Below, piece after piece: positions 46,637 to 56,390 of a stretch of DNA of 64,000 nucleotides; positions within the stretch are counted from its first letter, which is position 1; each line of letters begins with the position of its first letter. Location: positions 1 to 64,000 of the forward strand of contig JALONP010000007.1 of the NCBI GenBank assembly GCA_025454875.1. The letters are read 5' to 3'. The stretch is from Bacteroidia bacterium (GTDB lineage Bacteria; Bacteroidota; Bacteroidia; UKL13-3). A model generated the notes under the pieces. The model was not told the DNA's origin and ran no database searches. It saw only the letters and a program-made list of their open reading frames with translations. The position numbers were made by a program, and so were the translations under genes.

Positions 46637-47653
46637 CTAAGGTTGTATAACCAATTTGTATATAGAAGATTCAATTACTATATAATATACTCCATTTCCA
46701 AATTCAGATAATGCAATTTCTTCTTCATTGCTTTCTGCAATGGAAGATTGAACCAATACTCCTAATGTATTGTAGAGTTCATACTTTTTGCTTTTAGCAT
46801 TTTTTATAACACAAAAGGAAGATGCAGGATTGGGAAAAACGGTTATTGCCCGTTGTTGTATGGTTTCGTCAATGGCAGTTTTGATACCACATACTTTTGT
46901 TAGGGTATCAATCTGCTTCGCAATAAAATCTGTGGCTCTATCTCGGTCGCCATCTCTATACACCCGAATACAACTTGGGGCTCCGTTGTGGCAACCACTC
47001 CAAAACGAAGGGAGATTATTTTTTGAGTAAAGAGAGTCTGGTATCGGAAAACTGTAACTTGAAAAACCATCTCCGGGCAAACCAATAAGATACCAGCGCC
47101 CATCATCACATTTGTGTAGTTGAAAATAATGTGCAATTAAACTTTCGAACCACATTGTCCATGTTTCACCACCATCAAACGACCGAATTAAAGAAGAAGT
47201 GTAGTATCCATCAAACAATACAAATAAGCTGTCGTTTAACAACTGCATTTGGTTGATGCTTTTTCTTTCGGAAGCGTTAAAGTAAGAAGAATCAATTGTC
47301 CAGGTAGTTCCTGCATCGAGGGTTTTATATAAATACGTTTGCCCACCTATGTACATCCGACCAACTAAAACGTAACCCTTTTGTTCATTAACAAAATCTA
47401 CATCACGTATATAATAGGTTGTATCTCCAATAATTGTAAAGTCTTTGATAGGGATGATTGAGCTTGTGTTTTGCTTATACAACACCCTTTTACCCGCAAT
47501 ATAAGTGGCGTTTGCGCTTATGGGATAAAAGGTCGAGTCTCTAAAGAAATAATCTCGTTGTGCAGAAGTGTTTTTACAAAAGCAAAAGGTTAGCAACAGA
47601 ATGAGTAAACCCCATCGTTTTTGAAAGTAATGGAAACAAGCAGTGTTATTCAT
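46637..47653 (-). CDS. BNR/sialidase-like repeat secreted protein with T9SS sorting domain
   Basis: Exported 338-residue protein. Signal peptide ends near KNTSAQ. The body shows BNR/photosynthesis-stability-like repeats of a beta-propeller: LYKTLDAGTTWTIDSS and LIRSFDGGETWTMWF (the S/T-x-DGGxTW signature). The C-terminus (VFPNPASSFCVIKN ... FGNGVYYIVIESS) is a type A T9SS domain. It overlaps the upstream lipoprotein gene by 4 bp (ATGA), so they are coupled. Ligand unknown; true catalytic sialidase residues are not apparent. Confidence 0.8.
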   Translation of the reverse strand: MNNTACFHYFQKRWGLLILLLTFCFCKNTSAQRDYFFRDSTFYPISANATYIAGKRVLYKQNTSSIIPIKDFTIIGDTTYYIRDVDFVNEQKGYVLVGRMYIGGQTYLYKTLDAGTTWTIDSSYFNASERKSINQMQLLNDSLFVLFDGYYTSSLIRSFDGGETWTMWFESLIAHYFQLHKCDDGRWYLIGLPGDGFSSYSFPIPDSLYSKNNLPSFWSGCHNGAPSCIRVYRDGDRDRATDFIAKQIDTLTKVCGIKTAIDETIQQRAITVFPNPASSFCVIKNAKSKKYELYNTLGVLVQSSIAESNEEEIALSEFGNGVYYIVIESSIYKLVIQP

Positions 47654-48255
47654 TCTAAAAACAGATTATCGGCATTTATATAAATAATGTTCACTTGGTT
47701 TTGTCCACGGCTTTGTGCATTTCTGTTTACTTCTTTTAAAAACCGTTTGGTTTGTCTTTTCATGAACTTGGTCCAAAAGACCAACACCATTGGTTTTGAA
47801 GCATTTGCATATGTTTTTTCGTTCGCTGGCTGGATACAATTTTTGATATCATATAAGGAGATAGCACTATCTATTGGTGCTTGTTCACGTGGTGGAAACA
47901 CATCCATATTGCCATTGCGGTTCCATTTTAAATTGGGAAAACCACCGGCATAACAATTGATTTGAAAAGAAACCGGATAACTGCTGTTCGTAAAATAAAG
48001 GGCTTGGAGCGGTTGGGCATGGTTATTTTTTTGTGCATCTGATTGAATTCCTCGCAACGTATTTTTGTAACATCCTGTATCAAGGATAAAAGACGACCCG
48101 TTCGGAATTCCCCATTTTTGGGCAAGGGCATTTATTTCTTGTGGGGTGATGGGTTTTGGGTTTCGTATGCCAACAACTCCATAATAGATTGATGAGCATG
48201 ATTGCAGCAACGCAATCGGTATAACCAAAAAAGCAAAACGAAAGGTTATATTCAT
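47650..48255 (-). CDS. Lipoprotein, hypothetical
   Basis: Predicted lipoprotein of 201 residues. The leader is MNITFRFAFLVIPIALLQSC, with Cys20 as lipobox. The mature part has SSFILDTGCYKN, a few more Cys, and near the C-terminus KPMVLVFWTKFMKRQTKRFLKEVNRNAQ followed by VNIIYINADNLFLE. That last region has the alternating strand-helix-strand pattern of a thioredoxin-like fold but no CxxC motif. The ATG at 48255 is chosen over a TTG at 48258. It is the first gene of a two-gene unit with the BNR-repeat protein. Confidence 0.6.
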   Translation of the reverse strand: MNITFRFAFLVIPIALLQSCSSIYYGVVGIRNPKPITPQEINALAQKWGIPNGSSFILDTGCYKNTLRGIQSDAQKNNHAQPLQALYFTNSSYPVSFQINCYAGGFPNLKWNRNGNMDVFPPREQAPIDSAISLYDIKNCIQPANEKTYANASKPMVLVFWTKFMKRQTKRFLKEVNRNAQSRGQNQVNIIYINADNLFLE

Positions 48256-48340
48256 CAAACTAAGGTAGCCAAATTTATCTATAAATAAGAAGTTGCACCC
48301 AAGTTTGAAACTAATGCTAGGGTTGATTGAGTGTTTGTTA

Positions 48341-48994
48341 TTACATCATCATAAACCACTTGTTTTTTACAGCAAGCATCACAGCTTGGGTTTTACTGCT
48401 TACATGAAGTTTTTGGTATATTTTGGTAATATGTGTACGAACGGTGTGTGGGCTGATGAATAGCTTGTCGGCAACACCTTTGTAATCTAATCCTTCTACT
48501 AGTCCTTTAAGGATATCCATTTCCCTGGCAGAAAGAACGGTTTCTTCTTTTTGCTTTGCTTCTACTTTGGCGTTCATTAATAATTGCAAAGCTTTGCGCG
48601 CAATACGTGGACTCATGGGCGAACCACCAAATTCAACAATTTGCCAAAGTGCGTCTACAATTTTATCTACATTTTCATCTTTAAGTAAATACCCTATTGC
48701 ACCAGCCTTAATGGCTTCAAAAATTTTATCATCATCATCAAAAACGGTAAGCATTAAAAACTTGGTTTCAGGATAGAGGCTTGCGGCAATATTTACAGCC
48801 TCTATTCCATTCATAATAGGCATGTCAATATCCATCAGCACAACATCAACCAATTGTTTTTCTGCTTTTATTTTATTTAAAAAGTCTTCACCATTTGCAG
48901 CTAAAAAGGCCACATCGATATCTTTTAAAAAACTCAATTTTTCTTGTAACGAAACCCTGTTGGGTTGTTTATCGTCAACAATTGCAATGCGCAT
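48341..48994 (-). CDS. LuxR/NarL-family response regulator
   Basis: Two-component response regulator of 217 residues. The receiver domain (MRIAIVDDKQPNRVSL ... VDVVLMDIDMPIMNG, phosphoacceptor Asp in MDID) is followed by a LuxR-type helix-turn-helix (LSAREMDILKGLVEGLDYKGVADKLFISPHTVRTHITKIYQKL). The start at 48994 (MRIAIVDD) is chosen because a candidate promoter, shared in layout with three target units, puts the transcript start near 49009, after an upstream in-frame ATG at 49015. Its cognate kinase gene ends 66 bp upstream on the same strand. It is the likely regulator of the four palindrome-containing promoters in 49-54 kb, including its own; this is an inference. Confidence 0.88.
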   Translation of the reverse strand: MRIAIVDDKQPNRVSLQEKLSFLKDIDVAFLAANGEDFLNKIKAEKQLVDVVLMDIDMPIMNGIEAVNIAASLYPETKFLMLTVFDDDDKIFEAIKAGAIGYLLKDENVDKIVDALWQIVEFGGSPMSPRIARKALQLLMNAKVEAKQKEETVLSAREMDILKGLVEGLDYKGVADKLFISPHTVRTHITKIYQKLHVSSKTQAVMLAVKNKWFMMM

Positions 48995-49015: not shown

Positions 49016-49064
49016 CAAAAGTGCTGTTATGTTGGATGGCTATCAATACTGCAAATGCGCTATT
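49016..49064 (-). promoter_or_regulatory. Regulon box A: palindrome plus -7 box before the response regulator
   Basis: On the minus strand AATAGCGCATTTGCAGTATT covers 49064-49045. Its core GCATTTG and outer AATA...GTATT match the other three boxes. CACTTTTG (CAnnTTTG) then ends at 49016, putting TTTG at 26-29 nt after the palindrome, as in the others. The palindrome overlaps the kinase gene stop codon, so the regulator can be transcribed separately. Confidence 0.65.
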
Positions 49065-52047
49065 TTAGTACAATAGTTAATACTGTCCCTTTTCCAGGTT
49101 CAGAAGCTACAATAAGCTCTGCATTTGTTTCTTTTGCTCGAGCTTCCATGTTTATTAAGCCATAATGGCCTTTTTGTTTGGCTTGTTCCCAATCAAATCC
49201 AATCCCATCATCTTTAATAGAAAAAGCAAGGAGTGCTTTTTCATCGGATTGAAAGTGGATATGAACATTTTTACTTTGGGCGTGTTTCAAACAATTGTTA
49301 AACGCTTCTTGGCATACACGAAACACATTAAGCGCAACTGCTGGAGACAATACCTTATTGGGTAATATCTGTTCCGTAAAATGTACGTGAATTGTTCGAT
49401 CAAACTCCAACATTTTAAGTGCAAATTGCTTAAAGCGATCAGCAAAATCATCAACCTTTAAGCTGGTATTACTAATGGCCCAAATGGTTTGTCGTAGTGT
49501 TAAAATTGCATTTCGTCCGGCTTCGCTCATGGCTTGTAGGCGTTGTTGTTCATCTTGTTCCGTTAATCTATCGGGGTGTTGCAACATCCACTCTACATTG
49601 GTAATCAAATAGCTTAATTGGGCACCCACATTATCATGCAAATCGCGCGAAATGCGTAAACGCTCCTGCTCCAGCTTTTGTTGCAATTCTAATTCGCGCT
49701 GTAACTTGCGCTGTTGGCGCAAATTGTATGCATAAAACGCGCCACCTACTGCTACAAAACCAAGCAAGCCCATTAGCCAATAAAACCAAGTACGTTTCCA
49801 AAATGGGGGGATAATTGAAATGAAAATATTGCGAGGTTGTTTATTCCAAAAGCCATCGGCATTGGCAGCCATCACTTCAAATACATAATTACCCGGAGGC
49901 AAATTGGCGTAACGAGCAAAATGCTTTGTTCCGCTTTGAATCCAGTTATTATCATAACCAGCTAGTCGGTATTGATAGATATTGTTTTCGGGTTGGCTGA
50001 ATTCCAATGCCGAAAAATCGAACGACAGCGTGTTTTCTAAATAAGACAATGTGAGCGATGTGATTTCATTGTAAGCAGTATCGCTTTTGTAGGGCATGTC
50101 GCCCAATAGTATTTCGTTGATGGAAATTTGTGGGGCATTTTTATTTTCAATTACATGGCTTGGGTCAATTACATTAATTCCGTTTACACCCCCAAAGTAC
50201 AATAAGCCCTTTTCATCTTTATAATACGCTCCTGTGTTAAATTCGTTGCTTTGTAACCCATCTTTAACGCCATAGTGTTTAAAGGTTTGGGTTAATGGAT
50301 TATAAACAGATAAGCCTTTGTTATGGCTCATCCAAATCTTTCCGTTGTTATCTTCTAAAATGCCATAAATAAAATCATCGGGTAAATCTTGTGGTGCTTC
50401 ATAGCGTTTTATTACGGAACCATTGGGTTTCAAATGATACAAACCACTGTTACCACCAAGCCATAATGATTGCTTATTGTGTGTAAGACAAATGGATTTT
50501 ACTGTTAGCGAATAAGGAAGTTGTTTAATGCGCTTTGTAATGGGATTGAACTGAAGAAGATGCTGCGTTGTTCCTACCCACCAAACACTATCATTTGCAA
50601 TTTGAAAGGTAGTAAGGTAGTGTTTGCTCAACTCAAATTGATGAATGGTTTTTAATTTAAATTCTTGTTGAATTTCAAATAAATAAGCATCAGCCGACAA
50701 ATACACTTTTCCTTTATTGATTCTCAATACAGGGTATCCAATACCGCGTTGCTTTTGGGCCTTATAAATTTTTTCGGTGTAAACAACTTTTTGGGTGCGC
50801 AAGTTCATCACCATTAAATTCTCGTTTTGCACGAAATATAAATGGTTATTAAAAGTAATAAGCCCAAGGATATTGGTGGATATTTTATTTGGTAATTTAA
50901 AATGAGGTGTTTGTCCATTGTTGAGATACCAAACCATTCCCCCTTCATATAAGCCTGAAAAAACAGTGCCAACAGTATCGGTGCTAATGGCTTTAACCAA
51001 GCTGCTTCCTCCTGCTATTACGGGCAAATGTTTAAACTTATTATTTTGTGGTGACAAACATTTTGCTCCATCACCATTGGTGCATATCCACAGGTTGTTC
51101 GAATGGTCTATGTATAAATTTTGAACATAATAAAATCCAACTTTTTGCTTTTTATCGAATGATACAATATGCTCTTCGAACCGATTGGTGACGGTATCAA
51201 ATACAAAAAGGCCGGTATTATTTCCCATCCAAATTTTTCCTTGCCACCAAACCATTGAGGTAAAGTTACTTTTTTCAGTAGGGAATAAAGAGCCTTGTAA
51301 AGGCTTATATTTTATAGTATTCGAATTCACATCGTAATAGGTCATTTGCTTATCTGCATAAATACAAATAGTACTATCATTGTAAAGCATGATGCTATTA
51401 GTGTGTTTACTTCGGCCATAAACCAAATTCACTTCTTTGGTGTCAATATTTAACCTAAACCAACTGCTGGTGCTATCATTAAAATACCCAACAATGTATT
51501 TGCCTACAATAAAACCCTTGCGGAAAGAAGATACTTGAAACGTGCTTTTAGAAATATTGATGGTATGAAGCAATTGCAAGGTATTGTTAGAAAAGCATTG
51601 CAATTGTTGGGTATTGGTAATGCACCACATATTGCCATCATGGTCCTGGCCTATGAGTGTGGCATAGCTATCGCCATTATTAAAGCTGTCGGGAAAAATG
51701 TGTACGTTGTAAAAATTATTTTTTGCACGGTTGTAAACACTTATCCCTTTATTGTGCGAAATCCATAACTGATGATTTTTAGTTTCGAGGAAGTGAAATG
51801 CAGAGTTGCCTAAAATAGATGCCGTATCAAATTGGCTAAATTTATAATGGTGCATTTTATATCCATCAAATCGGTCAATACCATCGGCTGTGCCAAACCA
51901 CATAAAGCCTTTATAATCTTGAAAAACATCCCAAACGGTATTTTGGGCAAGGCCATTATCAACTGTGTATGAGGTGTAATTACGCTGCAATTGCGCAAAG
52001 CAAGCAACAGAAAAGGCAAGCAGCAGATAAGTAAATACAAACTTCAT
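49060..52047 (-). CDS. Hybrid-type sensor histidine kinase with two-component propeller sensor
   Basis: Membrane sensor kinase of 995 residues. The signal peptide ends near VACFAQ. The large periplasmic part has Reg_prop beta-propeller repeats (VWDVFQDYKGFMWFGTADGIDRFDGYKMHHY, LWISHNKGISVYNR, ILEDNNGKIWMSHNKGLSVYNP) and then a Y_Y_Y domain (LEFSQPENNIYQYRLAGYDNNWIQSG ... YANLPPGNYVFEVMAANADG). A membrane helix (FYWLMGLLGFVAVGGAFYAY) is followed by a coiled coil, the HisKA_3 phosphoacceptor (RISRDLHDNVGAQLSYLI) and a HATPase domain (DDGIGFDWEQAKQKGHYGLINMEARAKE). No receiver is fused; the response regulator gene follows on the same strand. The ATG at 52047 is preferred to an upstream start at 52086. 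Confidence 0.9.
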   Translation of the reverse strand: MKFVFTYLLLAFSVACFAQLQRNYTSYTVDNGLAQNTVWDVFQDYKGFMWFGTADGIDRFDGYKMHHYKFSQFDTASILGNSAFHFLETKNHQLWISHNKGISVYNRAKNNFYNVHIFPDSFNNGDSYATLIGQDHDGNMWCITNTQQLQCFSNNTLQLLHTINISKSTFQVSSFRKGFIVGKYIVGYFNDSTSSWFRLNIDTKEVNLVYGRSKHTNSIMLYNDSTICIYADKQMTYYDVNSNTIKYKPLQGSLFPTEKSNFTSMVWWQGKIWMGNNTGLFVFDTVTNRFEEHIVSFDKKQKVGFYYVQNLYIDHSNNLWICTNGDGAKCLSPQNNKFKHLPVIAGGSSLVKAISTDTVGTVFSGLYEGGMVWYLNNGQTPHFKLPNKISTNILGLITFNNHLYFVQNENLMVMNLRTQKVVYTEKIYKAQKQRGIGYPVLRINKGKVYLSADAYLFEIQQEFKLKTIHQFELSKHYLTTFQIANDSVWWVGTTQHLLQFNPITKRIKQLPYSLTVKSICLTHNKQSLWLGGNSGLYHLKPNGSVIKRYEAPQDLPDDFIYGILEDNNGKIWMSHNKGLSVYNPLTQTFKHYGVKDGLQSNEFNTGAYYKDEKGLLYFGGVNGINVIDPSHVIENKNAPQISINEILLGDMPYKSDTAYNEITSLTLSYLENTLSFDFSALEFSQPENNIYQYRLAGYDNNWIQSGTKHFARYANLPPGNYVFEVMAANADGFWNKQPRNIFISIIPPFWKRTWFYWLMGLLGFVAVGGAFYAYNLRQQRKLQRELELQQKLEQERLRISRDLHDNVGAQLSYLITNVEWMLQHPDRLTEQDEQQRLQAMSEAGRNAILTLRQTIWAISNTSLKVDDFADRFKQFALKMLEFDRTIHVHFTEQILPNKVLSPAVALNVFRVCQEAFNNCLKHAQSKNVHIHFQSDEKALLAFSIKDDGIGFDWEQAKQKGHYGLINMEARAKETNAELIVASEPGKGTVLTIVLK

Positions 52048-52060
52048 TGGCAGGGTTAAA

Positions 52061-52109
52061 AATACAGCATATGACGTATTTCCCAAATTTTGATTTTAAA
52101 AGTTCTTTG
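52061..52109 (+). promoter_or_regulatory. Regulon box B: palindrome plus -7 element before a T9SS gene
   Basis: AATACAGCATATGACGTATT at 52061-52080 is followed by GTTCTTTG ending at 52109, so TTTG is again 26-29 nt after the palindrome. The T9SS gene ATG comes 57 nt after the palindrome. The site lies in the divergent region with the kinase gene, but the spacing fits only rightward transcription. Confidence 0.65.
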
Positions 52110-52137
52110 CCGTATCACAATCTATAAAACAAACATT

Positions 52138-53163
52138 ATGAAAAAACAACTACTTACAATTACGAGTATGCTATTATTTACAGTAGGAGCATTTGCTCAA
52201 TTTAACGCAGCACAAATTTGGAACTTAAATCGCTATGTAGATCCAATGCCGCACAACGCCATTAACATAGCGGGAATCACAATGGGCGGTATCATCTATA
52301 ATCAAGCAGGAGTTCCAACCGCAGGATTAACAACCAACCCTGCACCTTTTCCAAAATTTCGTATTACTAGCACTGTAACAGGTAATAAATTAGTATGCAT
52401 TTCGGCTGAACAAGAAGATAACGACCCATGGGAAGAAAAAGAACGTGCCACTTTTGAAAGTGATGGAACCAATGATACTACCGTTACAGTTGAAGAAAGC
52501 AATAATGGATCGGCATTTACAAATACAGCAAAAGTAGTTATTGAGCGCGGCTCAAATCCCAATCAATATACCATACTGCAATATAGATTTAGAAACAACG
52601 ATACTTGGGTTTTAGATAGTAAATTGTTTCATTATTTAACCAACGGACGAATTGATTCCCTTGTAAGCTATAGATACACTGGGACAGACTCAACTAAGAA
52701 TGCTGTTAGAACGTTTTACTACTCGAATGGATTAGACTCTGTATTAGATAATTCATTAAATGTGATTTCAGGTCAATTTGTAGTAAATGGGAGATTTTTG
52801 GTATTGCAAAAAGAAAACGGAAAGACGAAACAATGGGCGCTTGAAAGTCGCCAAACTGAAACTGAACCATTTCAACGCGGTGGCACTATTTTATATAGCA
52901 ACGGCCCTGCATCTTCTTTAAGTGAGGTTACAAAAGGAAATCAGTTTTCAATTTACCCCAACCCTTCCACATCAACTATCAAATTGAATTTTACCGAAAA
53001 CGCATCGGTTCAAAACATCGTTATTTTAAACAGTAATGGTCAAAAATTAATTGAACAAAAAGAAGCAACCGGTATTGATGTAAGCGAACTTTCTGCAGGT
53101 TTATATTTTGTACAAGTAACAACAAACAAAGGAGTCTCTACTCAAAAATTCATCAAAAACTAA
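52138..53163 (+). CDS. Secreted protein with T9SS sorting domain, hypothetical
   Basis: Exported 341-residue protein. Signal peptide MKKQLLTITSMLLFTVGAFAQ. The mature part is beta-rich and of unknown family (FRITSTVTGNKLVCISAEQEDNDPWEEKERATF), with a repeated SLVSYRYTGTDSTKNAVRTFYYSNGLDSVLDNS stretch. The C-terminus (FSIYPNPSTSTIKLNF ... ELSAGLYFVQVTTNKG) is a type A T9SS domain. The ATG at 52138 replaces an upstream extension that has no signal peptide and lies over the promoter. It is the first putative target of the adjacent two-component system and has its own terminator. Confidence 0.83.
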   Translation: MKKQLLTITSMLLFTVGAFAQFNAAQIWNLNRYVDPMPHNAINIAGITMGGIIYNQAGVPTAGLTTNPAPFPKFRITSTVTGNKLVCISAEQEDNDPWEEKERATFESDGTNDTTVTVEESNNGSAFTNTAKVVIERGSNPNQYTILQYRFRNNDTWVLDSKLFHYLTNGRIDSLVSYRYTGTDSTKNAVRTFYYSNGLDSVLDNSLNVISGQFVVNGRFLVLQKENGKTKQWALESRQTETEPFQRGGTILYSNGPASSLSEVTKGNQFSIYPNPSTSTIKLNFTENASVQNIVILNSNGQKLIEQKEATGIDVSELSAGLYFVQVTTNKGVSTQKFIKN

Positions 53164-53225
53164 TCGAGCCTGTATTACTGCTTGTATGAAAATGCAGTAG
53201 TAACGTAGCGTTAGATTTGTGTAAG

Positions 53226-53255
53226 GCCGTATCATTAAAATGATGCGGCTTTTTT
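53226..53255 (+). terminator. Terminator after T9SS gene
   Basis: GCCGTATCAT at 53226-53235 pairs with ATGATGCGGC at 53240-53249 (one G-U pair) around a TAAA loop, then T6. It shares the stretch AAGGCCGTATCA with the terminator at 56564. Confidence 0.85.
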
Positions 53256-53377
53256 ATGTAATACTTTTATGGTGCCACTTGCACAGATATTCAATCCATT
53301 CTGTTCGTCAGCGGCATTATGCCATCTAAGATTTACACCCAACACAGACGCCTACTTTGTAAATCAAGATGGTATAA

Positions 53378-53426
53378 AATACAGCATTTGTCGTATTGAT
53401 AGGCAGAGTAAATACAAACATTTTTG
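53378..53426 (+). promoter_or_regulatory. Regulon box C: palindrome plus -7 element before a lipoprotein gene
   Basis: AATACAGCATTTGTCGTATT at 53378-53397 is followed by CATTTTTG ending at 53426 (TTTG at 26-29 nt). The lipoprotein ATG comes 57 nt after the palindrome. Confidence 0.7.
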
Positions 53427-53454
53427 TACCGTACAAACTAACAAACACAATCAA

Positions 53455-53907
53455 ATGAAAAAACTAATCATCCCAATACTTTTGCTCGCAATGGTTGCTT
53501 GCAAAAAAGAAGAAGATAAAAAGGAAGAGGTAAAACCAGATCCGAATGCACCAGTTGCGTTTACTAAAGAGGCAGCGGTTGGAACATGGCAAATCAACAA
53601 ATTTGAGGAGTATGCTATTCCAAGCGACACAATTAAGTTTACCTTTAATGTTCCAGCAGGGCAAGGTACTTTTACATTAGGTAGTGATAATTCTTATTCT
53701 ACTGTTTTGCCTCTTGGATCAGATAATGGAACATACATTATTGGAAAACTCAATGGAAAGGATTTATTAATTTTATTAGAAACTGGAAAACAGCCAGACA
53801 CTAATGAAGTTGTGTTATTCACTAAGTCTTCATTTGTAATCAGTAATAAAGATGCTGAAACAAGAAAAGGAAGTAATGATTACTCAAAAGGATATTTAAG
53901 CAGATAG
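53455..53907 (+). CDS. Lipoprotein, hypothetical
   Basis: Predicted lipoprotein of 150 residues: MKKLIIPILLLAMVACKKEEDKKEE (Cys17 lipobox), a charged linker, then a lipocalin-like beta domain (AAVGTWQINKFEEYAIPSDTIKFTFNV ... YSTVLPLGSDNGTYIIGKLNGKDLLILL). The GTWQ(I/L)xK opening resembles lipocalin-like DUFs, but no family is claimed. The frame is open for a further 62 codons upstream, but that part covers the promoter and lacks a signal peptide. It is followed at once by a terminator and is the second putative regulon target. Confidence 0.75.
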   Translation: MKKLIIPILLLAMVACKKEEDKKEEVKPDPNAPVAFTKEAAVGTWQINKFEEYAIPSDTIKFTFNVPAGQGTFTLGSDNSYSTVLPLGSDNGTYIIGKLNGKDLLILLETGKQPDTNEVVLFTKSSFVISNKDAETRKGSNDYSKGYLSR

Positions 53908-53926
53908 AGTTTTGCCAATTCAAACG

Positions 53927-53952
53927 AAAAGCCACCATTGTGTGGCTTTTTT
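53927..53952 (+). terminator. Terminator after lipoprotein gene
   Basis: AAAAGCCAC at 53927-53935 pairs with GTGGCTTTT at 53942-53950 with a 6-nt loop, followed by TT. It lies 20 nt after the lipoprotein stop and just before regulon box D. Confidence 0.8.
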
Positions 53953-53963
53953 ATGCTTACCAA

Positions 53964-54012
53964 AATACAGCATTTGCTGTATTGCCAGCCAAGCATTGCA
54001 AATCCAATTTTG
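53964..54012 (+). promoter_or_regulatory. Regulon box D: perfect palindrome plus -7 element
   Basis: AATACAGCATTTGCTGTATT at 53964-53983 is a perfect 9-bp inverted repeat about a TT centre. CAATTTTG ends at 54012 (TTTG at 26-29 nt after it). The ATG at 54040 comes 56 nt after the palindrome. Confidence 0.72.
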
Positions 54013-54039: not shown

Positions 54040-55692
54040 ATGAAAAAAATTATCTTAGCATCCTTACTGGTCTCACTAAATATTGGATTGCAAGCTCAGG
54101 TAGAACTCACGTCTAAGAGTTTTGACCTCGAATCACAGAACAAGCACAAAAACTGGTTTATAAAAGGCGCTGGTATGGACTCAATAACCGGAAAGGCCTA
54201 TATCAACTTTGTTCAAGCACAATGTGTTTCGAGCAGTACCTCAGACGCATCCTATGTGTACACCACATATTATGGCTTTAGATATAAGGTAGATAAACTC
54301 GTTTTTGATGATAAATTTAACTATATCGAAACAATAAATAAAAGCTATGAGTCAACGAAAGAAGCGTTACTCAACAACGAATTAATTTTTGGAGCAAAGT
54401 ACAATACGTATTATGATCCATTCTTCCCTTACCAAATAGATAATTCCTACATGTTCACCACTACTGTTAGTTATGGATTTACGGCTGGTAAAGATGTTGT
54501 GGCTTCATACCTTGGATTAAAGGTGCAAGGTTGCACTGAATATCCAAAACGTTACGAAGAGAATGGAGCAGCAAACAGACAATCAAAGGGAGAAAAGTGG
54601 TATCCTATTTACAGTAACCCTATCCCCAATGGTGGAAACATACTTTACAGTACTGTTGGTGTGCTAAAAGAAGAAAAACAACATTACATATTCAGAAAAT
54701 TTGATAAGGATTTGAACTTGGTTAAAGAGCAAACATTTACGTTTGATCATCAGTGCTTAATAACCGCCAAATCCATAGAAAAGGCACCTGGCAAATTTGA
54801 CTATGTTTTTATCGCTATCCCAATTGATTACAAGAAATCGAAAATAAAAACCACCGAAGCAAACAAGTATGAGTATTTTTATATTGATGGTGATAGCTAT
54901 GAAATAAAGGAGCATGTAAAATTTAATGCATCAAATACGCGTTGGGTTATTGATCAAGTAATACACAAGGACAATGCAACTTATTTAATAGGGGGTTGTG
55001 GTAATAACAACAAAGAATACTCTGATGTTAAAGGAGCAGTGGAAGAGGATTTCAATAATCTGCAGGTAGCCAAGTTCGAGAATAATAAATTGGTATACAT
55101 AAATGGCATCTTAAACAAAGATTTTCAAGGTTTCCTAAAAACCAATGAGGGTTTTGAGAGTAACTCGAAAGTAAGTTTAAAAATGGTAAGTACAAGCCTA
55201 ACCTTGGTCAATAACAAACTTGTTTATCAGGGAAGACAATTTAAAGGAGGACCTTCAGGATACGCAGTGATGGGACAATCTTTGGGTGGTGTAACTTATG
55301 TGGGTTTACAGGCATTCGTTATAAACGAGAAAGGTGCTCTAGATGCGATGCTATCAAAGAAGGGTGAAGATTTAGGATCGTCTGTTTCATTCTCAAAAGA
55401 CGGAAAAAAAATGTTCTGGTTTGCATATGATATTGGTAAATATAATAAGTTCAAAGACGGTACGATATACGCAAACAAATCAAAGTTTTTAATTACCAGT
55501 CTATCTGTTATCACCTATAATTTTGACTCAAAAGAAATCTCTACTTATCAGAATTTAGAAAACGATGATTGGGCTATAAGTTATACCAACCCTTTCTTAT
55601 ATGAAGATGAAAATAAACTCATAATGCTTGGCCACAAAATTACTAAAAAGGCAAAAGAGAGCGAGGTTGTTTTTATTACCATTAAGAAGTAG
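54040..55692 (+). CDS. Exported protein of unknown function
   Basis: Protein of 550 residues with a signal peptide (MKKIILASLLVSLNIGLQAQ). The rest is beta-rich and repetitive in hydrophobicity, with many Lys/Tyr/Asn-rich strands (FIKGAGMDSITGKAYINF, YIFRKFDKDLNLVKEQTF, FNLQVAKFENNKLVYINGIL-like), as in propeller-type envelope proteins. No catalytic motif, lipobox or T9SS domain is visible, so it is probably periplasmic. It is the third putative regulon target and lies 8 bp before a predicted outer-membrane protein, with which it likely forms an operon. Confidence 0.7.
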   Translation: MKKIILASLLVSLNIGLQAQVELTSKSFDLESQNKHKNWFIKGAGMDSITGKAYINFVQAQCVSSSTSDASYVYTTYYGFRYKVDKLVFDDKFNYIETINKSYESTKEALLNNELIFGAKYNTYYDPFFPYQIDNSYMFTTTVSYGFTAGKDVVASYLGLKVQGCTEYPKRYEENGAANRQSKGEKWYPIYSNPIPNGGNILYSTVGVLKEEKQHYIFRKFDKDLNLVKEQTFTFDHQCLITAKSIEKAPGKFDYVFIAIPIDYKKSKIKTTEANKYEYFYIDGDSYEIKEHVKFNASNTRWVIDQVIHKDNATYLIGGCGNNNKEYSDVKGAVEEDFNNLQVAKFENNKLVYINGILNKDFQGFLKTNEGFESNSKVSLKMVSTSLTLVNNKLVYQGRQFKGGPSGYAVMGQSLGGVTYVGLQAFVINEKGALDAMLSKKGEDLGSSVSFSKDGKKMFWFAYDIGKYNKFKDGTIYANKSKFLITSLSVITYNFDSKEISTYQNLENDDWAISYTNPFLYEDENKLIMLGHKITKKAKESEVVFITIKK

Positions 55693-55700
55693 GATACCTG

Positions 55701-56390
55701 ATGAAATTCGCCAAACACTTAGCTCTTGTTGCCTGTTTCTGCTGTACTTACATAGTTTCAATTGCCCAAGATGATCAGTTTCATTTGGCATTCTATCAAT
55801 TTTCAAAAGGGAATGCTGATTTGGCAACTAACAGTAACTATACATTTACCGTAAAAAACCCAATGCTTAAGTTTGATTGGGTAACATCAGATTTTGGATG
55901 GGTAACAGGTGACTTTTCCTTAGTGCCGAACATTGATTGGGGAGGTACGGTAAATCCACCAGATGACATTCATGGTGCGCTTGCGGATATTGACTTCGGA
56001 TTTTACGTGAATCCAGGCAAACCTATTAAAATACTTGGATCGGAAACACGAATAGGATTGGGTCTGATTGGAGGTTTTGAAACGGCAGGTTTCAGAAGTG
56101 CGGGTATTACTTTTCCGGGAGCAAGCTTTTCGATATTGACTCATCTGAACGACAGGTTCATTGTGAATACACGTTATCACTACAGTTTTTTCTATAACAA
56201 TAATGATTCGGGTAATTATGGAAAGAATACTAAACTACAGTTTAATATAACCTGCAAGTTGCTGAGGTGGTTGGGAATAACACTAACACCTAATATTGAA
56301 ACATATAAGCTAGCCGAGAGACCACCAGGTGCAGCTGCAAACGGAGCCAAATATCACTCGTTAGATTTAGGTATCTCGTTTTTTTGGTAA
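55701..56390 (+). CDS. Predicted outer-membrane beta-barrel protein
   Basis: Protein of 229 residues: signal peptide ending near SIAQ, then amphipathic beta strands (DIDFGFYVNPGKPIKILGSETRIGLGLIGGFETAGFR, VNTRYHYSFFYNNND, LDLGISFFW) ending in an aromatic Trp, the usual signature for insertion by the Bam machinery. Family not recognised. It starts 8 bp after the exported protein gene and is followed by a terminator at 56564, so the two likely share box D. Confidence 0.65.
   Translation: MKFAKHLALVACFCCTYIVSIAQDDQFHLAFYQFSKGNADLATNSNYTFTVKNPMLKFDWVTSDFGWVTGDFSLVPNIDWGGTVNPPDDIHGALADIDFGFYVNPGKPIKILGSETRIGLGLIGGFETAGFRSAGITFPGASFSILTHLNDRFIVNTRYHYSFFYNNNDSGNYGKNTKLQFNITCKLLRWLGITLTPNIETYKLAERPPGAAANGAKYHSLDLGISFFW

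Follow-up and report, generated by a model that had tools for sequence, protein, structure and literature searches.

In Escherichia coli, the response regulators NarL and NarP combine a REC and a GerE domain and act through 7-2-7 inverted repeats lying close upstream of the -35 region; a NarL site is centred at -44.5 at ogt, and a single 7-2-7 repeat is present at yeaR (PMC7419079). The E. coli NarL heptamer is TACYYMT. VraR/LiaR and DevR/DosR belong to the same NarL/FixJ family, and their operators are palindromic. For the Bacteroidota, few operators of two-component regulators are known, and for most Reg_prop kinases neither the signal nor the targets have been identified. In Porphyromonas gingivalis, PorX/PorY-SigP ties two-component control to type IX secretion, acting on the secretion machinery via an ECF sigma factor (PMC4800418), and FimS/FimR is a two-component system for surface proteins, the report on which names no binding-site motif (PMC1974823, searched for palindrome, consensus, footprint and inverted repeat). 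The hybrid two-component systems of Bacteroides polysaccharide loci place Reg_prop/Y_Y_Y sensors beside a local regulon.

The locus described here lies in a window of 64,000 nt (the whole stretch of DNA that was analysed) from a Bacteroidia bacterium. It carries four copies of a 20-bp box, which we consider likely to be the operators of the response regulator encoded at 48341-48994, activating that regulator's own gene and a local regulon. Its features are the following.

48341..48994, minus strand: response regulator, REC and GerE (NarL/FixJ type), start MRIAIVDD (Pfam, alignment)
49016..49023, minus strand: predicted -7 element (nAnnTTTG) of the regulator promoter, TTTG at +26 to +29, A at +23
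49045..49064, minus strand: Box 1, AATAGCGCATTTGCAGTATT, 5' of the response regulator gene
49060..52047, minus strand: sensor kinase (Pfam: Reg_prop and Y_Y_Y sensor, HisKA_3, HATPase_c)
52061..52080, plus strand: Box 2, AATACAGCATATGACGTATT, 5' of the type IX secretion (T9SS) cargo gene, 13 nt from the opposite-strand kinase start codon
52102..52109, plus strand: predicted -7 element of the T9SS cargo promoter
52138..53163, plus strand: exported protein, 341 aa, type IX secretion sorting domain (Por_Secre_tail match)
53378..53397, plus strand: Box 3, AATACAGCATTTGTCGTATT, with the orthologue AATACAGCATCTGCTGTATT 5' of the orthologous gene in locus L061
53419..53426, plus strand: predicted -7 element, CATTTTTG, of the lipoprotein promoter
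53455..53907, plus strand: small lipoprotein, 150 aa, lipobox (VAC) read from the sequence
53964..53983, plus strand: Box 4, AATACAGCATTTGCTGTATT, perfect palindrome
54005..54012, plus strand: predicted -7 element, CAATTTTG, of the exported-protein operon
54040..55692, plus strand: exported all-beta protein, 550 aa (AF2 model)
55701..56390, plus strand: exported protein, 229 aa, beginning 8 nt past the 550-aa gene and probably the second gene of the operon

The regulator meets the NarL/FixJ layout, with REC (PF00072, 7.5e-21) followed by GerE (PF00196, 1.2e-18), and its phospho-acceptor and switch residues are in place, D7, D8, D55 (in LMDIDMP), T83 and K105 being invariant in an alignment of 13 relatives. 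Its closest solved relatives are VraR/LiaR, NarL and DevR; as a NarL orthologue it scores 105 bits, below the NCBIfam equivalog cut-off of 250. The locus shares with NarL/NarP the domain layout, the 7-2-7 repeat and its placement, with a predicted box centre close to the -44.5 of E. coli NarL, but it differs in the heptamer (TAnnnCA), a variable triplet, the Bacteroidota -7 element and a local regulon of exported proteins. Indeed, TACAGCA and the other heptamers found here do not fit the E. coli one. VraR/LiaR and DevR/DosR differ in phylum, sensors and operator sequences. Unlike PorX/PorY-SigP, cargo-type proteins here stand behind a putative direct operator, and unlike the Bacteroides hybrids, with which the locus shares a sensor beside its local regulon, the kinase and regulator are separate proteins with a GerE and not an AraC output (Pfam). 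No published description of the box was found in the open-access literature searched.

The initial annotation had reported four 20-bp boxes at the positions and on the strands listed above, and inspection of the window confirmed them all, together with their reported spacing. The TTTG starts exactly 26 nt past the end of each box, occupying +26 to +29, the ATG of the three target genes lies 57, 57 and 56 nt after the box, and the MRIAIVDD start of the regulator 50 nt after. The description of the box as palindromic had to be refined: only Box 4 is a perfect 9-2-9 palindrome, the other three pairing at 7/9 positions. It had also been missed that Box 2 abuts the kinase start as well; the left arm of Box 1 overlaps the kinase stop codon. 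Four sites within three mismatches of the perfect copy were seen in the window, against 0.01 expected from dinucleotide-shuffled versions of it. The genome-wide check proposed in the initial annotation, run as an exact pattern of the skeleton, N25 and TTTG (AATANNNCANNTGNNNTATT-N25-TTTG), matched at four places in the 2.98-Mb genome, every one of them at this locus, and its reversed-pattern control returned none; by this search, no wider regulon was found in the genome. Looser near matches were also inspected. One at C13:181104 (L007:1501-1520 in G000; three mismatches) is a terminator-like repeat after alanine dehydrogenase and was rejected as a false positive, one at C21:2005 lies inside an ORF, and those on C6 and C22 have no TTTG.

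Comparison with related genomes shows that the boxes are conserved as footprints. At the orthologous locus, G049, G046, G006, G018 and G028 each carry AATACAGCANNTGCTGTATT or near variants of it in one to five copies, and boxes in five related genomes precede the regulator, lipoprotein, exported protein and T9SS cargo genes; AATAAGGCATATGCTGTATT and AATAGTGCATTTGCTGTATT occupy the position equivalent to Box 1. In orthologous promoters, identity is 0.85-0.93 in the box and 1.0 in the TTTG, versus 0.32-0.67 in the 40 nt upstream. A scan of 64 family genomes found multi-box clusters only in those with a close regulator orthologue. In G042 and G050, whose regulators are 57% and 53% identical to that of the window, the box is changed to TAGTACATCTGCACTATT 5' of the orthologous T9SS gene and to TAGTATAGATGCACTATT 5' of the regulator, and the TTTG position is unchanged. 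For diverged loci, a de novo search for palindrome pairs gave mostly noise, except in L065, L067 and L123, and TGCACTA-type boxes were found by direct reading of upstream regions. Kinase orthologues reach 82% identity within the family. At L059:461-6534 the sensor kinase is duplicated in tandem; the two copies are 82% and 62% identical to that of the window, and a box stands at the start of each.

A common skeleton extends across the phylum. Distant NarL-type regulators of the same family in the Bacteroidota keep AATA-nnn-CA-NN-TG-nnn-TATT and the 25-nt gap to TTTG. Its core, TAnnnCA-NN-TGnnnTA, has the 7-2-7 operator layout, two inverted 7-mers 2 bp apart, and is supported by decoy controls: among 80 named loci of related regulators, 33 strict sites fall in 23 loci versus 0.6 for decoys. 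A box scoring at least 12/15 lies within 170 nt upstream of 28 of the 67 related regulators examined (permuted decoys: mean 0.7, maximum 2); at this threshold and distance, a clear upstream box is absent for more than half of them. The skeleton and score thresholds were picked while viewing the data, a bias that the decoys reduce without abolishing it. When 392 genomes of the phylum were searched for the exact pattern, 21 of them contained matches, versus one match for the control, and a family regulator lay within 10 kb in 7 of 20 regions around such matches. Two further arrangements were observed. In Runella aurantiaca (L162:8876-8939), two near-identical boxes 44 nt apart precede the regulator, and their +26 TTTGs point in opposite directions; in G477 boxes AATACGTCATATGACGTATT and AATACGTCATTTGACGTATT (L247 and L249) lie far from that genome's regulator locus and are possibly distal regulon members.

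The triplet nnn varies among regulators and is common to the boxes of one locus, likeness within loci being 2.02 versus at most 1.68 in 20,000 permutations. This pairing of triplet and regulator extends to the recognition helix, whose classes go with particular triplets (R-T-H with CTG, for instance, R-N with (C/T)AC and R-K..I-E-N with NCG). With overall regulator distance controlled, the triplet still tracks the recognition-helix residues (partial Mantel r 0.20, p 0.0004), an association that is modest, partly follows descent and does not amount to a full phylogenetic test. The R-N helix is again paired with a CAC triplet in G176, where the protein, found independently, is probably a hybrid kinase-regulator. 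At L252:6104-9013, in a distant genome, a long ORF with a family-type output domain (probably another hybrid kinase-regulator) lies beside two boxes AATAGTGCATTTGCACTATT.

The comparative data thus support the claim of the initial annotation that the NarL-type regulator acts on these boxes. The pairing of regulator and box is very likely, although it is inferred from sequence without binding data.

The fixed spacing to TTTG holds well beyond the window. Across related loci of the phylum, with sites taken without selecting on TTTG, it stands at +26 in 41 of 120 strand-sites versus 0.8 per other offset, and an A at +23 is present in 87% of 78 promoters, again unselected, matching nAnnTTTG, with the A placed as in TAnnTTTG. 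When tested against the Bacteroidota sigma-A -7 element TAnnTTTG, the A and the TTTG are kept and the first T is not conserved (starts are unmapped). TATT closes the box and is followed in half of the 78 promoters by G, at the expected position of the -33 TTG. The Bacteroidota -7 element lies at -12 to -5 (PMC9723704), which puts the predicted start at +34 and the box centre at about -43.5. A box so centred overlaps the -33 element, so that activation is inferred to be its likeliest role, and the proposal in the initial annotation that the right half of the palindrome sits there, in the place for an activator, is supported by the geometry. The upstream ATG adjoins the -7 element and precedes the predicted transcription start, which favours MRIAIVDD (48994) as the start of the regulator.

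In the mechanism that we propose, the phosphorylated regulator would bind as a dimer to the 7-2-7 repeat TAnnnCA-NN-TGnnnTA, ending on the -33 element, and would recruit the housekeeping RNA polymerase to the -7 element with its TTTG after the 25-nt gap. It would thereby activate its own gene and those of the T9SS-exported protein, the lipoprotein and the two-gene exported-protein operon. Binding, its dependence on phosphorylation, autoregulation and the transcription start are all inferred here; activation is likely, in the absence of expression or 5'-end data.

The putative targets are largely exported. The genome encodes the T9SS protein SprA, and relatives of the 341-aa T9SS cargo, 44-54% identical, stand behind boxes in four other genomes. 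The 150-aa lipoprotein has orthologues at 60-85% identity, no Pfam or NCBIfam match and a structure model without a usable fold (pLDDT 34). Neither of the exported proteins encoded at 54040 and 55701 could be assigned to a Pfam or NCBIfam family. The AF2 model of the 550-aa protein (mean pLDDT 70) shows strands almost throughout; it resembles beta-propellers only weakly (TM about 0.3), and hence no function is claimed. Homologues of this protein stand behind boxes in L060, L061 and L186, and its gene is followed by that of the 229-aa protein in L060 and L061 also. Leaving the regulator aside, exported products also predominate among the targets scanned across the phylum: T9SS cargo accounts for 12 of 42, and lipoproteins and beta-propeller proteins are represented too, together with some kinases. 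The regulator gene is followed directly by two genes that lack a box, for a second protein with a T9SS sorting domain, carrying BNR repeats (46637-47653, minus strand), and for a putative lipoprotein (47650-48258, minus strand).

The alternative that survives best, though we find it unlikely, is that the regulator binds the boxes and mainly represses, or activates the targets and represses the kinase. In its favour, 13 nt separate Box 2 from the kinase start codon, a divergent arrangement kept in five related genomes, and TTTG or TTG occurs just upstream of this box, in the kinase orientation, in several orthologues; binding there should therefore block kinase transcription. Read in that orientation, moreover, the space downstream of Box 2 is too short for a -7 element, so that the regulator cannot activate the kinase from this box. 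Repression of the kinase from Box 2 thus remains a possibility, by inference. Against repression as the main role, the other boxes keep a fixed distance upstream of the -7 element and overlap the -33 element, a spacing that repression does not need, and in L134 and L150, where the arrangement is roomier, the kinase and the divergent gene both have TTTG at +26. The geometry fits an activator overlapping the -33 element, even if sequence alone does not give the sign of regulation.

Could a different DNA-binding protein bind the boxes, the regulator being merely one of its targets? Direct binding data are absent, and around some of the boxes found across the phylum no regulator of the family is encoded within 10 kb. 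In contrast, the triplet varies with the neighbouring regulator and its helix, clusters in the family scan are missing where a close regulator orthologue is missing, and NarL operators have the same 7-2-7 layout (PMC7419079), all of which makes this very unlikely. The idea that the palindromes act as RNA hairpins, attenuating or terminating transcription, is no more credible: the perfect copy at 53964 does fold well as RNA (z -3.7), but the other three do no better than shuffles (z 0.4, -0.9 and -0.4), no T run follows the boxes, and they lie upstream of the predicted starts. This candidate was rejected on the folding of those three. A chance origin, or a repeat that is dispersed or has been duplicated locally, to which four copies within 5 kb might point, is all but excluded by the shuffles (0.01 expected per window), the decoys and the footprints in orthologous promoters, where box and TTTG persist from species to species amid unrelated flanks.

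We therefore retain the boxes as likely operators of the regulator. A bolder reading, towards which we lean only slightly, is that NarL-type regulators of the Bacteroidota read a common frame, AATA-nnn-CA-NN-TG-nnn-TATT, 25 nt before TTTG, with the triplet set by a few recognition-helix residues. With one frame common to these regulators and a triplet that varies among them, regulators could be matched to their targets from genome sequence, and Reg_prop systems would be tied to surface proteins, both lipoproteins and those exported by type IX secretion. If this is true, the regulons of uncharacterised two-component systems would become readable from sequence.
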